Below, one piece after another: positions 135 to 23,309 of a stretch of 23,783 bases of DNA. Source of the stretch: a virus; the IMG/VR virus record IMGVR_UViG_3300042923_001020, positions 1 through 23,783 of that record. One strand, given 5' to 3'. Numbering within the stretch: the stretch's first letter is position 1; the number at the start of each line of letters is the position of its first letter. The notes under the pieces are model-generated. The model saw nothing but the letters and a program-made list of their open reading frames with translations. It was not told the origin of the DNA and did not search any database. Both the position numbers and the translations under genes were made by a program.

Positions 135-179
135 AAAGCTCCCCAAGGGACTCGAACCCTCGACCTACGCATTACGAAT
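135..179. repeat. attL: 45-bp copy of the tRNA-Thr 3' end
   Basis: These 45 bp are identical to 23026-23070. They contain the T-arm, the acceptor 3' strand and half of the anticodon stem-loop of the tRNA-Thr gene (minus-strand sense), and then diverge at position 180. This copy is a tRNA remnant with no 5' half, left behind by integration. The strand exchange point must lie inside this block, but the repeat alone cannot place it more finely. Confidence 0.95.
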
Positions 180-5837: not shown

Positions 5838-6272
5838 ATGAAATACATAGAACAAGGATATGAAAGACCAGAATACACAGTTTTAAAAACAATTAGACCA
5901 TTTTTCGATACTGCAAATGAATATTTAGTAATCAGAGTAAAAGACACAACCTTTTGCTGTCAAGAGGATCGCTGGAACGAATATGTACTGGGTTGCTCTG
6001 AAGACCTTTGGAGAAGGGTTGATGATTGGATTAGTGATTATGTAATGCCTCATGTGACTAGAAGAACGATTAATTATAATACGATGAGTAGCTACAAAAT
6101 AAAAGATGAATGTGAGCGGTGTATTGGTGCTTATGTAGCCGAAGAGTTGATTATGGCGCTTATATCCGCAAAGAATGTCCCAGGTGCAAATAAACATAGT
6201 ATGCGGTTATATCCGACAAGCGTACATTTCCCTTTATCAAGCAAATATAATCTCAATCGGGGGGTAAGATAA
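5838..6272 (+). CDS. Phage protein of unknown function, 144 aa
   Basis: Start supported by GAGGTAATG upstream of the ATG. The segment SSYKIKDECERCIGAYVAEELIMALI resembles, from memory, a small phage family that carries the pattern SSYxLKHxxE...Y(V/I)xNxxFIxAM. That family has no established function that I know. No membrane segment or catalytic motif is visible. The next gene starts directly after its stop codon, so the two are translationally coupled. It lies between the origin and the packaging genes. Confidence 0.8.
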   Translation: MKYIEQGYERPEYTVLKTIRPFFDTANEYLVIRVKDTTFCCQEDRWNEYVLGCSEDLWRRVDDWISDYVMPHVTRRTINYNTMSSYKIKDECERCIGAYVAEELIMALISAKNVPGANKHSMRLYPTSVHFPLSSKYNLNRGVR

Positions 6273-6731
6273 TTGCCAAACAAACGAGATCTTAACCTAG
6301 AAAGATTCGGGATAAGCCAATGTCGATATAGGGAACTTAAATACTTTAGTCTTCAATATCCGGAGTGGCAAGATGTAATAAAACATGGAACGCATTCTGT
6401 AAAGAGTCCGCAAATTACCGGAATGCCTAATGGTGATTCGATAAGTAATTCAACAATGAACCTAGCAATAAAAAGATCAGAAGCCGGCAACAATATGCAG
6501 CTGATAGAACAGACAATGTTTGAAGCAATTGCTACTACAGTTGATGGCAGGTGTAACCCAATATATGACGGTGATTGGGAAATTGATTTGTATCCGTTTA
6601 TGATGGAAGCTGTCACGAATACAGATATTACATACACTTATTTGTATCACAAAGGGATACCGATTTCCCTGAATAGTTTTAACTGTATACGAAGATATTT
6701 CTATTTTCTCTTAGATAAAAATAAAAACTGA
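6273..6731 (+). CDS. Phage protein common upstream of terminase, function unknown, 152 aa
   Basis: A TTG start directly follows the previous stop codon and has GGGGGT upstream. The N-terminus (NLERFGISQCRYRELKYFSLQYPEW) and the C-terminal ISLNSFNCIRRYFYFLL match, from memory, a hypothetical family often found just before the HNH/terminase genes of clostridial siphoprophages. In other phages late regulators of the RinA/ArpU type occupy this place, so a regulatory role is possible but unsupported. The last gene before the late promoter region. Confidence 0.8.
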   Translation: MPNKRDLNLERFGISQCRYRELKYFSLQYPEWQDVIKHGTHSVKSPQITGMPNGDSISNSTMNLAIKRSEAGNNMQLIEQTMFEAIATTVDGRCNPIYDGDWEIDLYPFMMEAVTNTDITYTYLYHKGIPISLNSFNCIRRYFYFLLDKNKN

Positions 6732-6751
6732 TAATTACAAAGTCGATGATA

Positions 6752-6779
6752 TTGGGACATACTTTTAGTTTATTATGAT
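6752..6779 (+). promoter_or_regulatory. Candidate late promoter
   Basis: TTGGGA and TATGAT are separated by 16 bp in the gap before the packaging genes. A weak -35 with a good -10 fits an activator-dependent promoter. A strong hairpin follows in the presumed leader. Confidence 0.45.
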
Positions 6780-6833
6780 AGTATGGAAATAGCAAACAAG
6801 GTAATAACATAGAAGTAATCCTCCTTCCTTTAT

Positions 6834-6871
6834 AAAGCGCTTATGACTTAGCAATAGGTTATAGGCGCTTT
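6834..6871 (+). terminator. 14-bp stem-loop between early and late genes
   Basis: AAAGCGCTTATGAC pairs with GTTATAGGCGCTTT across a 10-nt loop, with two G-T pairs. The end is rich in T (CTTTCTTAATT). It could end the early transcript or act as an attenuator in the leader of the late operon. Confidence 0.65.
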
Positions 6872-6910
6872 CTTAATTGATAGGAGCAGGCAGTAATTAA
6901 GGTGATAATC

Positions 6911-7117
6911 ATGAAGAAGTGTTTACCAAAATCATATAAAGATTGTATCTCAGAGAAGTATAAGAGTAAGACTTGTATTGGGTGCAAGGATTTGACTAAT
7001 CCGGAATGCGGCATACTTAAAAGCATTCGGCATAGTTCAGGTGCAGTATATACCATAAAGGTTCCGGATAAGGACTGCAGCATGTATGGCAACCGGGATA
7101 AGGCGGTGACCACCTAA
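6911..7117 (+). CDS. Small cysteine-rich protein, 68 aa
   Basis: I chose the ATG at 6911 over the GTG at 6902 because AAGGTG then lies 6 nt upstream. Seven cysteines, including CIGC, ECG and a late DKDC, suggest a zinc-binding fold, but no family is recognised. The stop codon overlaps the HNH start (TAATG), indicating coupled translation. Confidence 0.65.
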   Translation: MKKCLPKSYKDCISEKYKSKTCIGCKDLTNPECGILKSIRHSSGAVYTIKVPDKDCSMYGNRDKAVTT

Positions 7118-15005: not shown

Positions 15006-15295
15006 CCGATCTTCTGCTAAAAAGGTATGGCAATATCGAATATGTCTTAAAGCTCCCGTTAAAGCAATCATTAAAACTGATTGAGAAAGCGCAGGAGGAA
15101 GAAACAAGGGAATATGTATTGAAATTTTACCTGGTAGACAGACCAAACATGACAAAGGAAAACTTCAAAACATTCAATGAATACTACGACGAAATGAAGC
15201 CTAGGAAAATCGAATACGACATAAGAAGCCGGGACGAAATCATGCAAGAAATACTTGAGATAGAAAAATCCAAAGCGAAGGGAGATGAAAAATAA
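14631..15295 (+). CDS. Tail assembly chaperone, -1 frameshift product (gpGT-like)
   Basis: The fusion shares residues 1-115 with the short form, slips back one base at T-TTT-TTA (14969-14975) and continues for 106 codons (ITSRSNRAELTDLLLKRYGN...), giving about 221 aa. The -1 frame is open from 14957 to the TAA at 15293-15295 and has no good start of its own. This explains the otherwise gene-less stretch after 15005. The stop overlaps the tape measure ATG (TAATG). In lambda, gpG and gpGT are both needed in a fixed ratio for tail assembly. Confidence 0.88.
14969..14975 (+). promoter_or_regulatory. -1 ribosomal frameshift site T-TTT-TTA
   Basis: This is a perfect X-XXY-YYZ heptamer in the correct zero frame (TTT at 14970, TTA at 14973). 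It falls in the only window where both frames are open (14957-15003). I did not identify a convincing downstream pseudoknot or an upstream stimulatory Shine-Dalgarno. Confidence 0.88.
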
Positions 15296-17142
15296 TGGAA
15301 TTATTCCGCTTATTTGGAACGGTCCTTATTGACGATAAAGACGCTATAGAATCCCTTAAAAAAGTAGACAATCAAGGAAAAACCACAAAGACTGGTTTGT
15401 CAGACATGGCAAAAAAAGGAGCAGTTATTGGAACCGCCGTTGTAGCTGGGTGCGCAGTTGCAGTCGGTGGTTTATTATCCTTAGCCAATAGCACAAGTGA
15501 CACAGCAGCTGGTTGGCTAGAGTTATCCCAACGAACTGATATTGGAGTAGAGAGCCTGCAAAGATGGGGATACGCTGCCAGTCAAAGCGGTGCAGATGTC
15601 GGCAAATTAGAAGTAGGTATGAAAAAACTGTCAACGAGTATAGTTGATGCACAAGGCGGTTCGGAAAAGGCAATTGCGGCATATGATGCCCTCGGAATAT
15701 CAATGTCTGATTTATCAAAGATGTCACCAGAGCAGACATTTGATGCAGTAATGGCGAAACTTGCGGATATGCCGGCAAGCGCAGAAAAGAACGTCATAGG
15801 TAATCAATTACTAGGAAAGTCCTACACCGAACTGAAGCCGTTATTAGACAGTGGTTCTGCAGGTATGGAAGCACTAAAAAACAAAGCTGATGAACTTGGA
15901 ATTGTAATGTCTGAGAAGAACGTTGTTGCCGCGGAGGGCTTTGGAGATTCGATGGACAACGTAAAATTGGCTGCCGACGGAATTAAGAATAATCTCATGA
16001 CCGCATTAATGCCACAACTAACCGGGCTGATGGATTGGTTCGTGGCCAGTATGCCAGCGATACAAGATTTCGTTACTAATGCACTTGATAAAGTTTCAAT
16101 CGCGATTCAATGGATCGGCGATAATTCAAACATCTTACTACCTATACTTGGTGCAGTAGCCGCCGCGTTTGTGGTAATGCAAGTTATTGGAGTAGTCAGT
16201 GCATTAATGACGGCATGGACTACCGTAACAACCGTTGCAACGGCCGTACAGACAGCCTTTAATGCAGTAATGGCAGCTAACCCTATAGCACTTGTTATAA
16301 TTGCAATTGTGGCCCTAATAGCAATTGGAGTATCATTGTGGAAGAACTGGGATACGATCAAGGAAAAAGCAAGTGAGATATTCGGAAAACTCAAGGAAGT
16401 TGTCGGGGATGCAATCGAAAAAGTAAAAGGCTTCTTCCAAAAAATCATTGATTTTGTCAAGGATAATTGGCAAGGATTACTTCTCTTAATAGTCAATCCC
16501 TTCGCCGGAGCTTTTAAACTAGCATATGATAATTGCGAAGGATTTCGAAATAAGGTAAATGAGATTTTTGAAAAAATAAAAGGTGGAATATCTGATAAGA
16601 TAAACGCAATAAAAACCACTATATCCAATGTGTTTGGATTGATAAAGGCTATAATGTCAGATCCATTTGAAGCCGCAAAGACCGCAATCAGTTTAGTAAT
16701 TGATAAGATAAAGGGCTTCCTTAATTTCAATTGGGAATTTCCTAAATTAAAGATGCCTCATTTCAGTTTTAGTGGAAGTATGAACCCATTAAAATGGGCT
16801 GAAGATGGGCTTCCTAAAATTGGTGTTGAATGGTATGCAAAGGGCGGTATATTTGATAGGCCTACAATCTTCAATACTCCATACGGTTTAAAAGGTGTTG
16901 GCGATGCATCCAGTCCGGAAATTGTGGCACCGCTAAGTGAATTAAATGCTATTATCAGGGAAGAAATCAGTAATATCATTCAATCACTATTCTCATTATC
17001 TGATACCGGAGGGCAAGAAATAGTAATACGTAACAACTTGTATCTTGATGGTCGGACTATTTATGAAAATGTAAAAACACGTGCGAAGAGTGATAATGTA
17101 GCCAATAATAGCTATTCGAGCTCTTGGCCGGATTACGCATAA
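15295..17142 (+). CDS. Tape measure protein
   Basis: A 615-aa tail-length ruler. The N-terminus (LFGTVLIDDKDAIESLKKVDNQGKTT) is the usual tape measure opening. Hydrophobic segments lie near residues 43-64 and 280-350, and long amphipathic helices with repeated IKEKASEIFGKLKEV-like units follow. The C-terminal part includes the WYAKGGIFDRPTI motif common at the ends of these proteins. With the known ruler relation of about 1.5 angstrom per residue, the tail would be about 90 nm, short for a siphovirus. The gene has GGGAG upstream and overlaps the chaperone stop by one base. No frameshift or gap is seen, so the short length looks native. Confidence 0.93.
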   Translation: MELFRLFGTVLIDDKDAIESLKKVDNQGKTTKTGLSDMAKKGAVIGTAVVAGCAVAVGGLLSLANSTSDTAAGWLELSQRTDIGVESLQRWGYAASQSGADVGKLEVGMKKLSTSIVDAQGGSEKAIAAYDALGISMSDLSKMSPEQTFDAVMAKLADMPASAEKNVIGNQLLGKSYTELKPLLDSGSAGMEALKNKADELGIVMSEKNVVAAEGFGDSMDNVKLAADGIKNNLMTALMPQLTGLMDWFVASMPAIQDFVTNALDKVSIAIQWIGDNSNILLPILGAVAAAFVVMQVIGVVSALMTAWTTVTTVATAVQTAFNAVMAANPIALVIIAIVALIAIGVSLWKNWDTIKEKASEIFGKLKEVVGDAIEKVKGFFQKIIDFVKDNWQGLLLLIVNPFAGAFKLAYDNCEGFRNKVNEIFEKIKGGISDKINAIKTTISNVFGLIKAIMSDPFEAAKTAISLVIDKIKGFLNFNWEFPKLKMPHFSFSGSMNPLKWAEDGLPKIGVEWYAKGGIFDRPTIFNTPYGLKGVGDASSPEIVAPLSELNAIIREEISNIIQSLFSLSDTGGQEIVIRNNLYLDGRTIYENVKTRAKSDNVANNSYSSSWPDYA

Positions 17143-17174: not shown

Positions 17175-17531
17175 ATGTCACATAATTTTAATGGGGTAGA
17201 CGTGAGAACGCCTACCTCGTTTAATTGGGAATTAAAAGATATCGAATCTTATAGTGATAGAGATACCCTTGATGGCACTCTCCATGTCGAAGTAGTGGCT
17301 CAGAAAAGAAATATAAGTTATAAATGGGCCGATCCAACAGTGGAGGAAGTAGCAACGATATTACAACTAGTTAATCAATCATCAACGGTAAATATCAGGT
17401 ACCCGGATGCATTGAGCGGTACATATGAAACACGTAAGTTTAGAGCACTAAAGAAGACTGCTCCATTCCGTAATTTTCGTGTAGGAGCGAGGTCATATTC
17501 TGAACTTGCATTGGAATTTGAAGAGTATTAG
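17175..17531 (+). CDS. Post-tape-measure tail protein (DUF6711-like)
   Basis: A 118-aa protein starting MSHNFNGVDVRTPTSFNWELKDIESYSDRDTLDGTLHVE. The sequence resembles the DUF6711 group encoded just after the tape measure in some Firmicutes siphoviruses, possibly a small distal tail or tube-related protein. GAGGTG lies 6 nt before the ATG. It is the last recognisable structural gene. No tail-tip lysin, fibre or receptor-binding gene follows, only the sigma-like gene 29 bp later. Confidence 0.75.
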   Translation: MSHNFNGVDVRTPTSFNWELKDIESYSDRDTLDGTLHVEVVAQKRNISYKWADPTVEEVATILQLVNQSSTVNIRYPDALSGTYETRKFRALKKTAPFRNFRVGARSYSELALEFEEY

Positions 17532-17560: not shown

Positions 17561-18754
17561 ATGTCTGATGAAGAACTGGTTGCACTTATAAAGACTGGCA
17601 TTGATGTCAGAGATAATATGGAACAGCTATATAATCAGAAAAAAGGTTATATCCGATACTTTGCAAAGAGATATTTTGGGATCGTGGACGATGAGGATTT
17701 AATGCAAGAGGGATTCCTTGCGCTTTCTGATGCGGTCGATAGTTATGATAATACAAAATACGAGGTATTTGCTAACCACTTAAAATATTATCTAATAAGA
17801 CAATATGATACTTATGCTAAACGATTTAATCATAAAGGTGCGGTATCACGTTACGACAATGAGAGAATAAATAGGTATGTCAAAATTAAAAAAGCATTCT
17901 TTACCGAATACGGGAGAGAACCAACCATCCCGGAATACGTGGCATACCTTAACACAACCATAGAGCAAGTTGACCAGATCAGAATAATGATTAACACTAG
18001 AGATATTGTAAGCGTTGATAATATGGTTGATGAAGAAAGCGGAGAGTCTTTTGTTGATACGGTATTGACTAACGGCCAGAACATGGAAGAAAATATTGTT
18101 GACGGTATGATTGAAGCGAGCCTTAAATCTGGATTATGGGAAGTCGTGAAGCAAAGCACCACTCCGAATGAATATGATGTTGTCAGAGCAGTTTATACGC
18201 TTAATATAACACCAGGGGCGTATTCTGCCGAGACAGGCGAGCCCAGAAAAACAATTCAAACTGATTATAATCGCGCCATGGGAAAACTGAGAACGGACAG
18301 AGTAAAGCGCATAATATCCAATAAATTCGAACTGGATTATAACGGAGCTTACCGATCTGGAGTAGCCAGGTTTAAACATACAAGGACATCCTCAACTGAA
18401 AGAGTTGCAATTAACAATATCGAACGGGAATTAGGCTATATTTCATACGTATTAACTTCTACTGTCAATGGTATAAATCTTCTGACCCAAGGACAAATCA
18501 ATTTAGCTGTAGACCATGGAATATTAGATGATAAGTTTGAAATACATGTAGAATTCGAGAAACCTAAACCAGGGAAAAAGCCTCAGTCAATTTATCAATA
18601 CGATTTAAGTGGGACCTTTATCAGACGATGGGATTCGGCCTTGGAGGCTTCCAGGGAATTAGGTATAGATGAAAGCGCTATCCGCAAGTGTTGCAATGGT
18701 AAACTGAAGGCATACAAGGGATATCAATGGAGGCATGACCATGACGGAGAATGA
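17561..18754 (+). CDS. Sigma-70-like factor with C-terminal NUMOD1-like domain
   Basis: A 397-aa protein. Region 2 is clear: DDEDLMQEGFLALSDAVDSYD at 43-63. A region-3-like segment (TEYGREPTIPEYVAYLNTTIEQV) spans 115-137, and a degenerate region-4-like segment spans about 190-245 (NEYDVVRAVYTLN...KTIQTDYNRAMGKLR). Residues 342-391 (SIYQYDLSGTFIRRWDSALEAS...LGIDESAIRKCCNGK...GYQWRH) match NUMOD1, a DNA-binding module otherwise typical of HNH and GIY-YIG homing enzymes. No nuclease motif is present. GAGGTGATATT precedes the ATG. It is co-transcribed with the tail genes and overlaps the next gene. It probably redirects RNA polymerase to phage, helper or host promoters, but the target is unknown. 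Confidence 0.82.
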   Translation: MSDEELVALIKTGIDVRDNMEQLYNQKKGYIRYFAKRYFGIVDDEDLMQEGFLALSDAVDSYDNTKYEVFANHLKYYLIRQYDTYAKRFNHKGAVSRYDNERINRYVKIKKAFFTEYGREPTIPEYVAYLNTTIEQVDQIRIMINTRDIVSVDNMVDEESGESFVDTVLTNGQNMEENIVDGMIEASLKSGLWEVVKQSTTPNEYDVVRAVYTLNITPGAYSAETGEPRKTIQTDYNRAMGKLRTDRVKRIISNKFELDYNGAYRSGVARFKHTRTSSTERVAINNIERELGYISYVLTSTVNGINLLTQGQINLAVDHGILDDKFEIHVEFEKPKPGKKPQSIYQYDLSGTFIRRWDSALEASRELGIDESAIRKCCNGKLKAYKGYQWRHDHDGE

Positions 18755-19166
18755 TTTGAAACAATATATTTTCATTGAAAAGGAAATTGATATACTTGGA
18801 AAAGAATTGCTAAAGCTCAACTCCCACCAGTTGATACGGAGACAGGGACTTACGGAAAAGTTATATCTTGGAGCGGTTATTGAAGAGACTGCAGAGGAAC
18901 TATCAACCGAGATATCTTCCATAAAAACCATCATATCAGACAGGCTTCATAGACTCTACCAGAAAAGAGTTGATATTGAGACTTATATAGATTTGGTTGA
19001 TGACTGCGAAATCAGATTGATCCTTAGGCTTAGATATATTAACGGAATGAGTTATGATGATATATCTTCTGAACTTACCGTAGTGAATAGTAACGGTGAT
19101 GTAATGAGAACGGCATCAGCGACTTATTTCAATAATAAGATAGTTAGATTTTTCAAGCAGCATTAA
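18741..19166 (+). CDS. Late transcription regulator, sigma-region-4-like HTH (ArpU/RinA-like)
   Basis: A 141-aa protein: a coiled N-terminal half and a C-terminal segment DDCEIRLILRLRYINGMSYDDISSEL that resembles the region 4 helix-turn-helix of sigma factors. Small proteins of this kind regulate late genes in Gram-positive phages and usually lie before the terminase. Here the gene sits after the tail module and overlaps the sigma-like gene by 14 bp. The second ATG (18741) is chosen because GGAGG is then 7 nt upstream. An intrinsic terminator ends the operon. Confidence 0.75.
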   Translation: MTENDLKQYIFIEKEIDILGKELLKLNSHQLIRRQGLTEKLYLGAVIEETAEELSTEISSIKTIISDRLHRLYQKRVDIETYIDLVDDCEIRLILRLRYINGMSYDDISSELTVVNSNGDVMRTASATYFNNKIVRFFKQH

Positions 19167-19185: not shown

Positions 19186-19219
19186 GGCATTCGGCTTAGG
19201 CTGGGTGCCTTATTTTTTT
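19186..19219 (+). terminator. Terminator of the late operon
   Basis: A 10-bp stem (GGCATTCGGC with GCTGGGTGCC, including G-T pairs) and a TTAG loop are followed by TTATTTTTTT. It closes the long structural-regulatory operon. Confidence 0.9.
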
Positions 19220-20671: not shown

Positions 20672-20710
20672 AACCACTCTAAGGCTTAATTGTCTTATGA
20701 GTGGTTTTAT
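20672..20710 (+). terminator. Leader hairpin before the DUF2971 gene
   Basis: AACCACTC pairs with GAGTGGTT, with inner pairing TAAG/CTTA, and the end runs into TTTTAT. It may be an attenuator of the promoter at 20619, or the 3' end of a short RNA of about 55 nt. Confidence 0.5.
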
Positions 20711-20783
20711 ATATGTTATGATAGATAATTATGTTTATGATTGTCAATATGGCAAAGAAATTTATTGTTTGAGGAGAAAATCT

Positions 20784-21596
20784 ATGACTGAAAAGGAAGT
20801 AGAAAGGATATATCTATATGGAGATCCTCGACGAACTAACAATTTACAGCAAATAAATTACTACTACGATCATGTACCCACAAAACTATACCATTATAGC
20901 AGAGATACAAGTTGCAGTCTTAATAATCTATTAACTAATAAAATGTGGTTGTCTTTACCAAGTGAGTTTAATGATCCATATGAGTTTAAAATCGATATTG
21001 ATATTAAACATTACATAAAACAGGTAATAAGGGAAAACAAGGAACTAAAAAAACATAATGATGTTTTAGATGAGCTTGAATATAATCTTTTTAAAATAAA
21101 TTGTAAAGCGGAGGAAGTGCGTAATCAAGCAATAATTGGATGTTTTAGTGAGAAATGCAATTCCTTATTGATGTGGAGCCATTATGCCTCGTTTCATAAA
21201 GGATTTTGTATCGAGTATAATATAAATGATTTGATTCATAAATTTAATACGCTATTACTTCCTGTGGTATATGGGAAAAAGTATAATATGTATTACCATA
21301 ATGTAAATAACAAAAAAGATGAATTGTACAAAATCTTTATAACAAAAGCCAGAGAGTGGAAATATGAAAAAGAATGGAGATACGTAAAAGAATTATCTGG
21401 AGATAATTTAGAAGTCATAGAACATGGAGGAGTTGCCATTGACATTCCAAAGCCTAACAAGGTTATTATAGGATGTAACATAAAATCTACGAATGCAATT
21501 ACTATTATTAAACATTGTAGAAAAGAAGGAATTATGTGTAGTAGAATGAAGATGCATGAGGAAAAGTATAAATTAATTGAAGAGAAAATACTATAA
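20784..21596 (+). CDS. DUF2971 protein
   Basis: A 270-aa protein with the family's landmarks in order: LYHYSRDTSCSLNNLLTNKMWLSLPSEFNDPYEF near the N-terminus, then IIGCFSEKCNSLLMWSHYASFHKGFCIEYN, LPVVYGKKY, and AREWKYEKEWRYV followed by VIIGC. The ATG at 20784 is used because GAGGAG lies 7 nt upstream; an upstream in-frame ATG at 20697 starts inside the hairpin. DUF2971 genes often occur as cargo in prophages and islands; a role in anti-phage defence has been suspected for such genes, but I know of no proven activity. Low-GC even for this window. Confidence 0.85.
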   Translation: MTEKEVERIYLYGDPRRTNNLQQINYYYDHVPTKLYHYSRDTSCSLNNLLTNKMWLSLPSEFNDPYEFKIDIDIKHYIKQVIRENKELKKHNDVLDELEYNLFKINCKAEEVRNQAIIGCFSEKCNSLLMWSHYASFHKGFCIEYNINDLIHKFNTLLLPVVYGKKYNMYYHNVNNKKDELYKIFITKAREWKYEKEWRYVKELSGDNLEVIEHGGVAIDIPKPNKVIIGCNIKSTNAITIIKHCRKEGIMCSRMKMHEEKYKLIEEKIL

Positions 21597-23025: not shown

Positions 23026-23100
<75 letters not shown>

Positions 23101-23309
23101 ATAAACTTTAATATATTGCCTAAGTAACAGGCTACTCAACTATTCTATTATAAAGAGTATAAAAATTCAAGGATTTTTTTAATCTTATTAAGATTAATTG
23201 ATGTCATTAATAGAAGTGAATAAGATACATCAATTATTTGCCGTTGCGTAAATAATTTTATTTTAGTTTTAGTGGATGAAATAACAGCTTGGCGGTGATT
23301 AGAATTATG

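Follow-up and report, generated by a model that had tools for sequence, protein, structure and literature searches.

A prophage sigma-70-type factor with a C-terminal NUMOD1 domain

Sigma factors normally select promoters through their regions 2.4 and 4. Phages and prophages of Clostridia encode a family of sigma-70-type factors (phrog_351 / phrog_1740; L005, L030, L032, L116, L121, and others), which have the same fold and length as residues 1-290 of the protein described here, hereafter the window protein (the window is the whole stretch of DNA analysed, 23,783 nucleotides of the IMG/VR virus record IMGVR_UViG_3300042923_001020). The TSSTER motif at the C-terminus and the location near tape measure or head genes are also common to both. 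In contrast, none of the 80 relatives contains a NUMOD1 domain, and nearly all of them outscore the window protein in region 2.3-2.4 and in the HTH of region 4. Xpf (PCF) of the B. subtilis prophage PBSX is likewise a prophage-encoded sigma-like factor and acts on the PBSX late operon. It is listed as a sigma-like positive control factor and as a sigma2-sigma4 protein (PMC10141391), and it is by this description that Xpf is compared here with the window protein. The ArpU/phrog_36-type regulators, one of which is encoded beside the gene under study, have a region 4-like HTH but are separate proteins without region 2.

The C-terminal module of the window protein is the same NUMOD1 that is found in HNH and GIY-YIG homing endonucleases of the I-HmuI and I-TevI type, which, however, have a nuclease domain where the window protein has a sigma factor. 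A similar nuclease-free fold is present in sCTP-23166 of Paulinella, titled a DNA-binding protein, but this is a eukaryotic single-domain protein unlike the fusion. We found no description of a sigma-NUMOD1 factor in the literature searched, most subscription journals lying outside that search, in agreement with the first-pass annotation, which knew of no factor of this design. Where "NUMOD1" and "sigma factor" occur in one paper, they stand in passages unrelated to each other. New here is that a diverged region 2.3-2.4 and a diverged region 4 HTH stand beside an intact NUMOD1, while the putative core-binding parts are normal.

The fusion gene and its prophage

The gene starts with ATG and consists of a single uninterrupted frame of 397 codons, in which the sigma part (residues 1-290) is followed by a linker and the NUMOD1 domain (Table 1). 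A second contig (L002) carries the same DNA; the two differ at a single one of 8224 bases, window position 23107, which lies outside the gene. In frame, though in neither of the other two frames, the linker and NUMOD1 segments share the codon usage of the prophage, so that a frameshift does not account for the fusion. Together with the second contig, the codon usage rules out frameshift and misassembly as its source, and a separate homing gene joined by a frameshift, which the first-pass annotation had considered, is not present. The observation of the sigma-NUMOD1 fusion is confirmed.

Table 1. Features of the prophage and of the fusion gene (window coordinates)
Feature	Position	Strand	Basis or remark
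attL-like copy of the 45-bp direct repeat	135..179	.	
Tail tape measure protein gene	15295..17142	+	PHROGs
phrog_1194 gene, function unknown, upstream of the fusion gene	17175..17531	+	PHROGs
Sigma-NUMOD1 fusion gene	17561..18754	+	397 aa; frame, Pfam, family profile
Sigma region 2.1-2.2, residues 23-66, putative core RNA polymerase-binding part	17627..17758	+	Pfam Sigma70_r2; conservation normal
Sigma region 2.3-2.4, residues 66-100, -10-reading part	17756..17860	+	most divergent of the family (leave-one-out)
Sigma region 3 and start of the 3-4 linker, residues 101-174	17861..18082	+	Pfam Sigma70_r3 slightly below cut-off
Sigma region 4, residues 193-247, predicted folded, HTH diverged	18137..18301	+	family alignment; AlphaFold
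Family C-terminal motif F..T.TSSTER.AI, residues 258-290, usual end of the relatives	18332..18430	+	family comparison
Linker, residues 291-341, no known relatives	18431..18583	+	codon usage coding; low pLDDT
NUMOD1 domain, residues 342-392	18584..18736	+	Pfam, conservation, AlphaFold, structure matches
ArpU/phrog_36-type transcriptional regulator gene, sigma region 4-like HTH	18735..19166	+	ATG at 18735 or 18741
Terminator-like hairpin with T run, 3' of the regulator gene	19186..19209	+	
attR-like copy of the 45-bp repeat, inside tRNA-Thr (23028-23100, minus strand)	23026..23070	.	

The element is a whole integrated bacterial prophage of 22.9 kb. Its 45-bp repeat falls in a tRNA-Thr(CGT), and the integrase adjoins the left copy. 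The genes are ordered integrase, repressor, primase, terminase, portal, protease, major head protein, connectors, major tail protein, and tape measure, followed by phrog_1194, sigma-NUMOD1, the ArpU/phrog_36-type regulator, and the hairpin, so that the fusion gene closes the structural block. The regulator matches phrog_36 (5.1e-14) and, in both cases below the cut-off, Sigma70_r4_2 (5.1e-5) and DUF1492 (5.7e-4). Its gene overlaps the fusion gene by 14 or 20 bases, depending on the start codon, which suggests that both are translationally coupled. The same order of a sigma gene followed by a phrog_36-type gene recurs in four relatives (L020, L137, L154, L159). In other relatives the sigma gene has the tape measure gene (L116, L121, L125, L126, L132, L141) or the major head gene (L006, L135, L136, L144) as a near neighbour. 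Given this position beside tape measure and head genes, a role in late transcription is the natural reading of the gene order.

Between 17531 and 23026, nothing was recognised as a tail-fibre, holin, or endolysin gene, and related sigma genes are also found on contigs of 16-19 kb; the element may belong to a class of short or defective phages. The accessory region near attR, which in phages is a frequent place for cargo genes, encodes a DUF2971 protein (20697-21596; Pfam 8.1e-8). The promoter proposed at 6752 in the first-pass annotation is not supported. It matches the consensus in 9 of 12 positions, as expected at chance level (three promoter-like sites in the stretch compared to 4.0 expected), and nothing further supports it.

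The sigma part and its divergence

Residues 1-290 are a member of the family of Clostridia phage sigma-70-type factors. A profile built from 80 relatives without the window protein matches them with an E-value of 1.9e-78; the relatives, gathered from searches of genomes and viral contigs, are phage and prophage sigma factors of Lachnospiraceae and other Clostridia. In PHROGs, residues 3-256 match phrog_351, "RNA polymerase sigma factor" (1.3e-19). The relatives contain region 2, most of them region 4, and often also region 3, and they typically stop just past the common F..T.TSSTER.A motif, with a median extension of six residues beyond the position of residue 290. According to Pfam, region 2 is present but barely above the cut-off (Sigma70_r2, residues 23-66, 2.7e-5, 24.3 bits versus 24, profile positions 1-45 of 71), its 2.3-2.4 part being strongly diverged. 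Region 3 (residues 101-174, 1.9e-5, 25.1 bits) scores slightly under the cut-off of 25.3. Region 4 is not matched by Pfam in a search of all 397 residues, but it aligns in the family profile and is predicted to fold into three helices (residues 202-213, 218-225, and 229-243) with a pLDDT around 90.

Most of residues 1-250 are confidently modelled by AlphaFold, and the top PDB matches of the model in Foldseek are sigma-70 chains in polymerase complexes, with E-values down to 3.2e-9, in agreement with an overall sigma-70 fold. At a pTM of 0.33 the domains are not positioned relative to one another, which explains the low TM-scores, so that only the extent of the matches speaks for the fold. Structure prediction and profile searches, as proposed in the first-pass annotation, have thus recovered both sigma-70 chains and NUMOD1. 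The region 2 that it had placed at residues 43-63 is present, and its domain picture stands as described, to be extended by region 3, by the alignment to the family over the full sigma part, and by the changes in the -10-reading part. The region 4 that it called weak seems rather to be present, and is predicted to fold, with changed DNA-contact residues.

To compare conservation per region, each family member was scored against all others, with the scored sequence left out. In region 2.3-2.4 the window protein is the lowest of 66 (-0.27 versus a mean of 1.79, sd 0.68; none of the 65 others is lower), and in the region 4 HTH the second lowest of 68 (0.09 versus a mean of 1.37, sd 0.50; only one of the 67 others is lower). 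Its score for the 3-4 linker is likewise the second lowest of 68. The N-terminus, regions 2.1 and 2.2 (rank 37 of 66 for the latter), region 3 (residues 101-150), and the C-terminal motif are ordinary. The divergence is thus confined to the DNA-reading parts and the 3-4 linker, while the putative core-binding parts are normal. At the columns assigned by alignment and motif to Y430, R441, and R588 of E. coli, the family residues Y, R, and R are present in 66, 62, and 61 of the 80 relatives, but the window protein has H and T in region 2.3-2.4 and Q in region 4. Region 2.3-2.4, which also has an S at a conserved P column, is changed even more than the DNA-contact residues of region 4.

This pattern fits a protein that is still selected for polymerase binding but reads DNA in another way, without being proof that NUMOD1 has taken over promoter reading. 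The loss of several DNA-contact residues could also be expected from a decaying gene in a defective prophage, as could the lysis and distal tail genes not recognised between 17531 and attR. However, the gene contains neither a stop nor a frameshift, and random decay would not spare regions 2.1, 2.2, and 3, the C-terminal motif, and NUMOD1, which are all conserved normally; decay is therefore very improbable. Alternatively, the protein might no longer read promoters itself but bind core polymerase while being held at a NUMOD1 site, where it would act as co-activator, decoy, or blocker, and the ArpU/phrog_36-type partner would provide the promoter contacts as in split factors. The divergence of both promoter-reading surfaces with the putative core-binding parts kept would agree with this, as would the region 4-like HTH of the overlapping downstream gene. 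Yet region 4 is still predicted to fold, and since the same gene pair occurs with other sigma factors of the family, the pair alone does not imply a loss of promoter reading. We consider this second-ranking alternative improbable.

The NUMOD1 domain and the linker

Residues 342-392 bear the NUMOD1 consensus QYDL.G.FI..W.S...A...LGI....I..CCNGK.K...GY.W and are, according to the predicted fold, an intact canonical NUMOD1. Pfam matches NUMOD1 at residues 343-377 (1.2e-7, 32.2 bits versus a curated cut-off of 22.8) and I-HmuI_NUMOD-like at residues 356-389 (1.6e-6). With 2.39 bits per column the domain is not less conserved than other NUMOD1 proteins (mean 2.18; rank 28 of 38 from the lowest). 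In an AlphaFold model built with 39 relatives the pLDDT is above 90 throughout the domain. The best PDB match of this model is DNA-bound I-HmuI (1u3e; Z 9.5, rmsd 2.8 over 62 residues); it also matches sCTP-23166 (8b6e; Z 7.5, rmsd 1.7 over 51) and the DNA-binding domain of I-TevI (1i3j; Z 5.7, rmsd 3.0 over 50). The model of residues 334-397 (window 18560-18751) is matched by the anti-CRISPR AcrVA3 as well (9kja; Z 4.5, rmsd 2.4 over 52). This likeness seems to be that of a shared small fold only, and a distant link between the two folds is possible.

Pfam finds no nuclease domain, whether HNH, GIY-YIG, or other, in residues 1-397, and because of this the window protein is not a homing endonuclease. 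The C-terminal NUMOD1 and the missing nuclease had both been recognised in the first-pass annotation. The linker has no Pfam match and no recognisable relatives. Its pLDDT is low, yet it is coding according to its codon usage. The stretch NLLTQGQINLAVDHG is reminiscent of the HNH tail NLEWxTxxENxxHAxxxG, but a homing-nuclease remnant is not supported. A profile of 13 HNH tails matches the linker no better than shuffles (p about 0.10), nor is it matched by the end linkers of 77 NUMOD1 proteins (p 0.86).

Occurrence of the fusion and its possible role

Among the 81 aligned family members NUMOD1 is found in the window protein alone. Given that L002 represents the same element, all known copies of the fusion belong to one prophage population with two near-identical contigs. 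Counting its recurrence, as the first-pass annotation had proposed, revealed no further case. The search covered 35 further loci, most of them contigs already included, 371 Clostridia genomes probed with the C-terminal half, and, with the whole protein as query, 398 genomes of the phylum and 291 of the class. These scans are of limited sensitivity, and the viral scans used a few short peptide patterns each, so that rarer fusions may escape. NUMOD1 itself is rare in this neighbourhood, being detected at 1e-5 in one of 200 Lachnospiraceae genomes. A sigma domain is absent from about 100 other NUMOD1 frames, which come from viral contigs, phages, and Clostridia genomes. A simple motif search found HNH or GIY-YIG signatures in most of them and left 14 unassigned, several of which are visibly of these types or truncated. 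One relative (L156; IMGVR_UViG_3300021255_001997, 6001-7080) has an intact region 4 and a C-terminal HTH of the Cro/CI type (Pfam HTH_3, 6e-5, 23.4 bits versus a cut-off of 23). Together with the NUMOD1 of the window protein, it follows that a DNA-binding domain has been added at this end at least twice, each time a different one.

The strongest alternative is that NUMOD1 is a passenger on a phage sigma factor that is otherwise ordinary and has a promoter specificity of its own. A homing endonuclease might once have inserted at the 3' end of the gene and then been reduced by deletion, which would be tolerated because the end of the family proteins is free. That only one prophage has the fusion and that NUMOD1 elsewhere mainly accompanies the HNH or GIY-YIG nucleases of mobile elements both agree with such an origin, and a recent fusion would appear intact from its age alone. 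In addition, phage sigma factors can drift in their promoter contacts as the promoters themselves change. However, the linker contains no nuclease remnant, the frame is open with normal codons, and L156 has a different DNA-binding domain at the same end. We therefore regard a mere passenger as unlikely.

The reading that we prefer, and to which we give about an even chance, is that of a prophage sigma-70-type factor, probably for late genes, in which a flexibly tethered NUMOD1 adds to the promoter choice. Regions 2.1-2.2 and 3 would, judged by their conservation, hold the host core RNA polymerase, while the diverged surfaces of region 2.3-2.4 and the region 4 HTH would contact the -10 and -35 elements less strongly. 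Through the linker of about 50 residues NUMOD1 would be tethered to the sigma part, so that it could add a contact at a specific DNA site next to a late promoter, possibly together with the ArpU/phrog_36-type protein. The family profile and sigma-70 fold matches, the intact NUMOD1, the divergence pattern, the HTH_3 of L156, the neighbouring tape measure and head genes, and the recurrent sigma/phrog_36 pair argue for a supplemented promoter choice. Against it, selection on the fusion cannot be measured because only one prophage population is known, and phage sigma factors can diverge in their promoter contacts without any new domain. Also, the intergenic regions of the prophage share only short A/T-rich 10-mers and no operator-like motif, and the prophage may be defective. 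Taken as a whole, the interpretation of the first-pass annotation, a sigma factor with an added sequence-specific DNA contact, is partly supported.

It is a more tentative proposal, with less than an even chance, that a selfish homing-endonuclease module has been reused such that the factor, its own -10 and -35 contacts weakened, finds its promoters through the tethered NUMOD1. If so, this sigma family would have gained DNA-binding domains at the C-terminus at least twice independently (the HTH_3 of L156 being the other case), and the fusion would mark a domestication route for homing-endonuclease parts by which a piece of selfish DNA is reused for gene control. Drifted promoter-reading regions with an attached DNA-binding module would demonstrate a modular re-aiming of bacterial RNA polymerase, and the protein could serve as a small natural scaffold on which to design orthogonal sigma factors for use in Clostridia. 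A different architecture with NUMOD1-like domains was noticed in a Lachnospiraceae genome (G302; L179, 1-1674), where a protein of 546 residues, the first 500 of which have no Pfam match, contains two NUMOD1-like copies and an apparent EDxK/Vsr-like nuclease motif.
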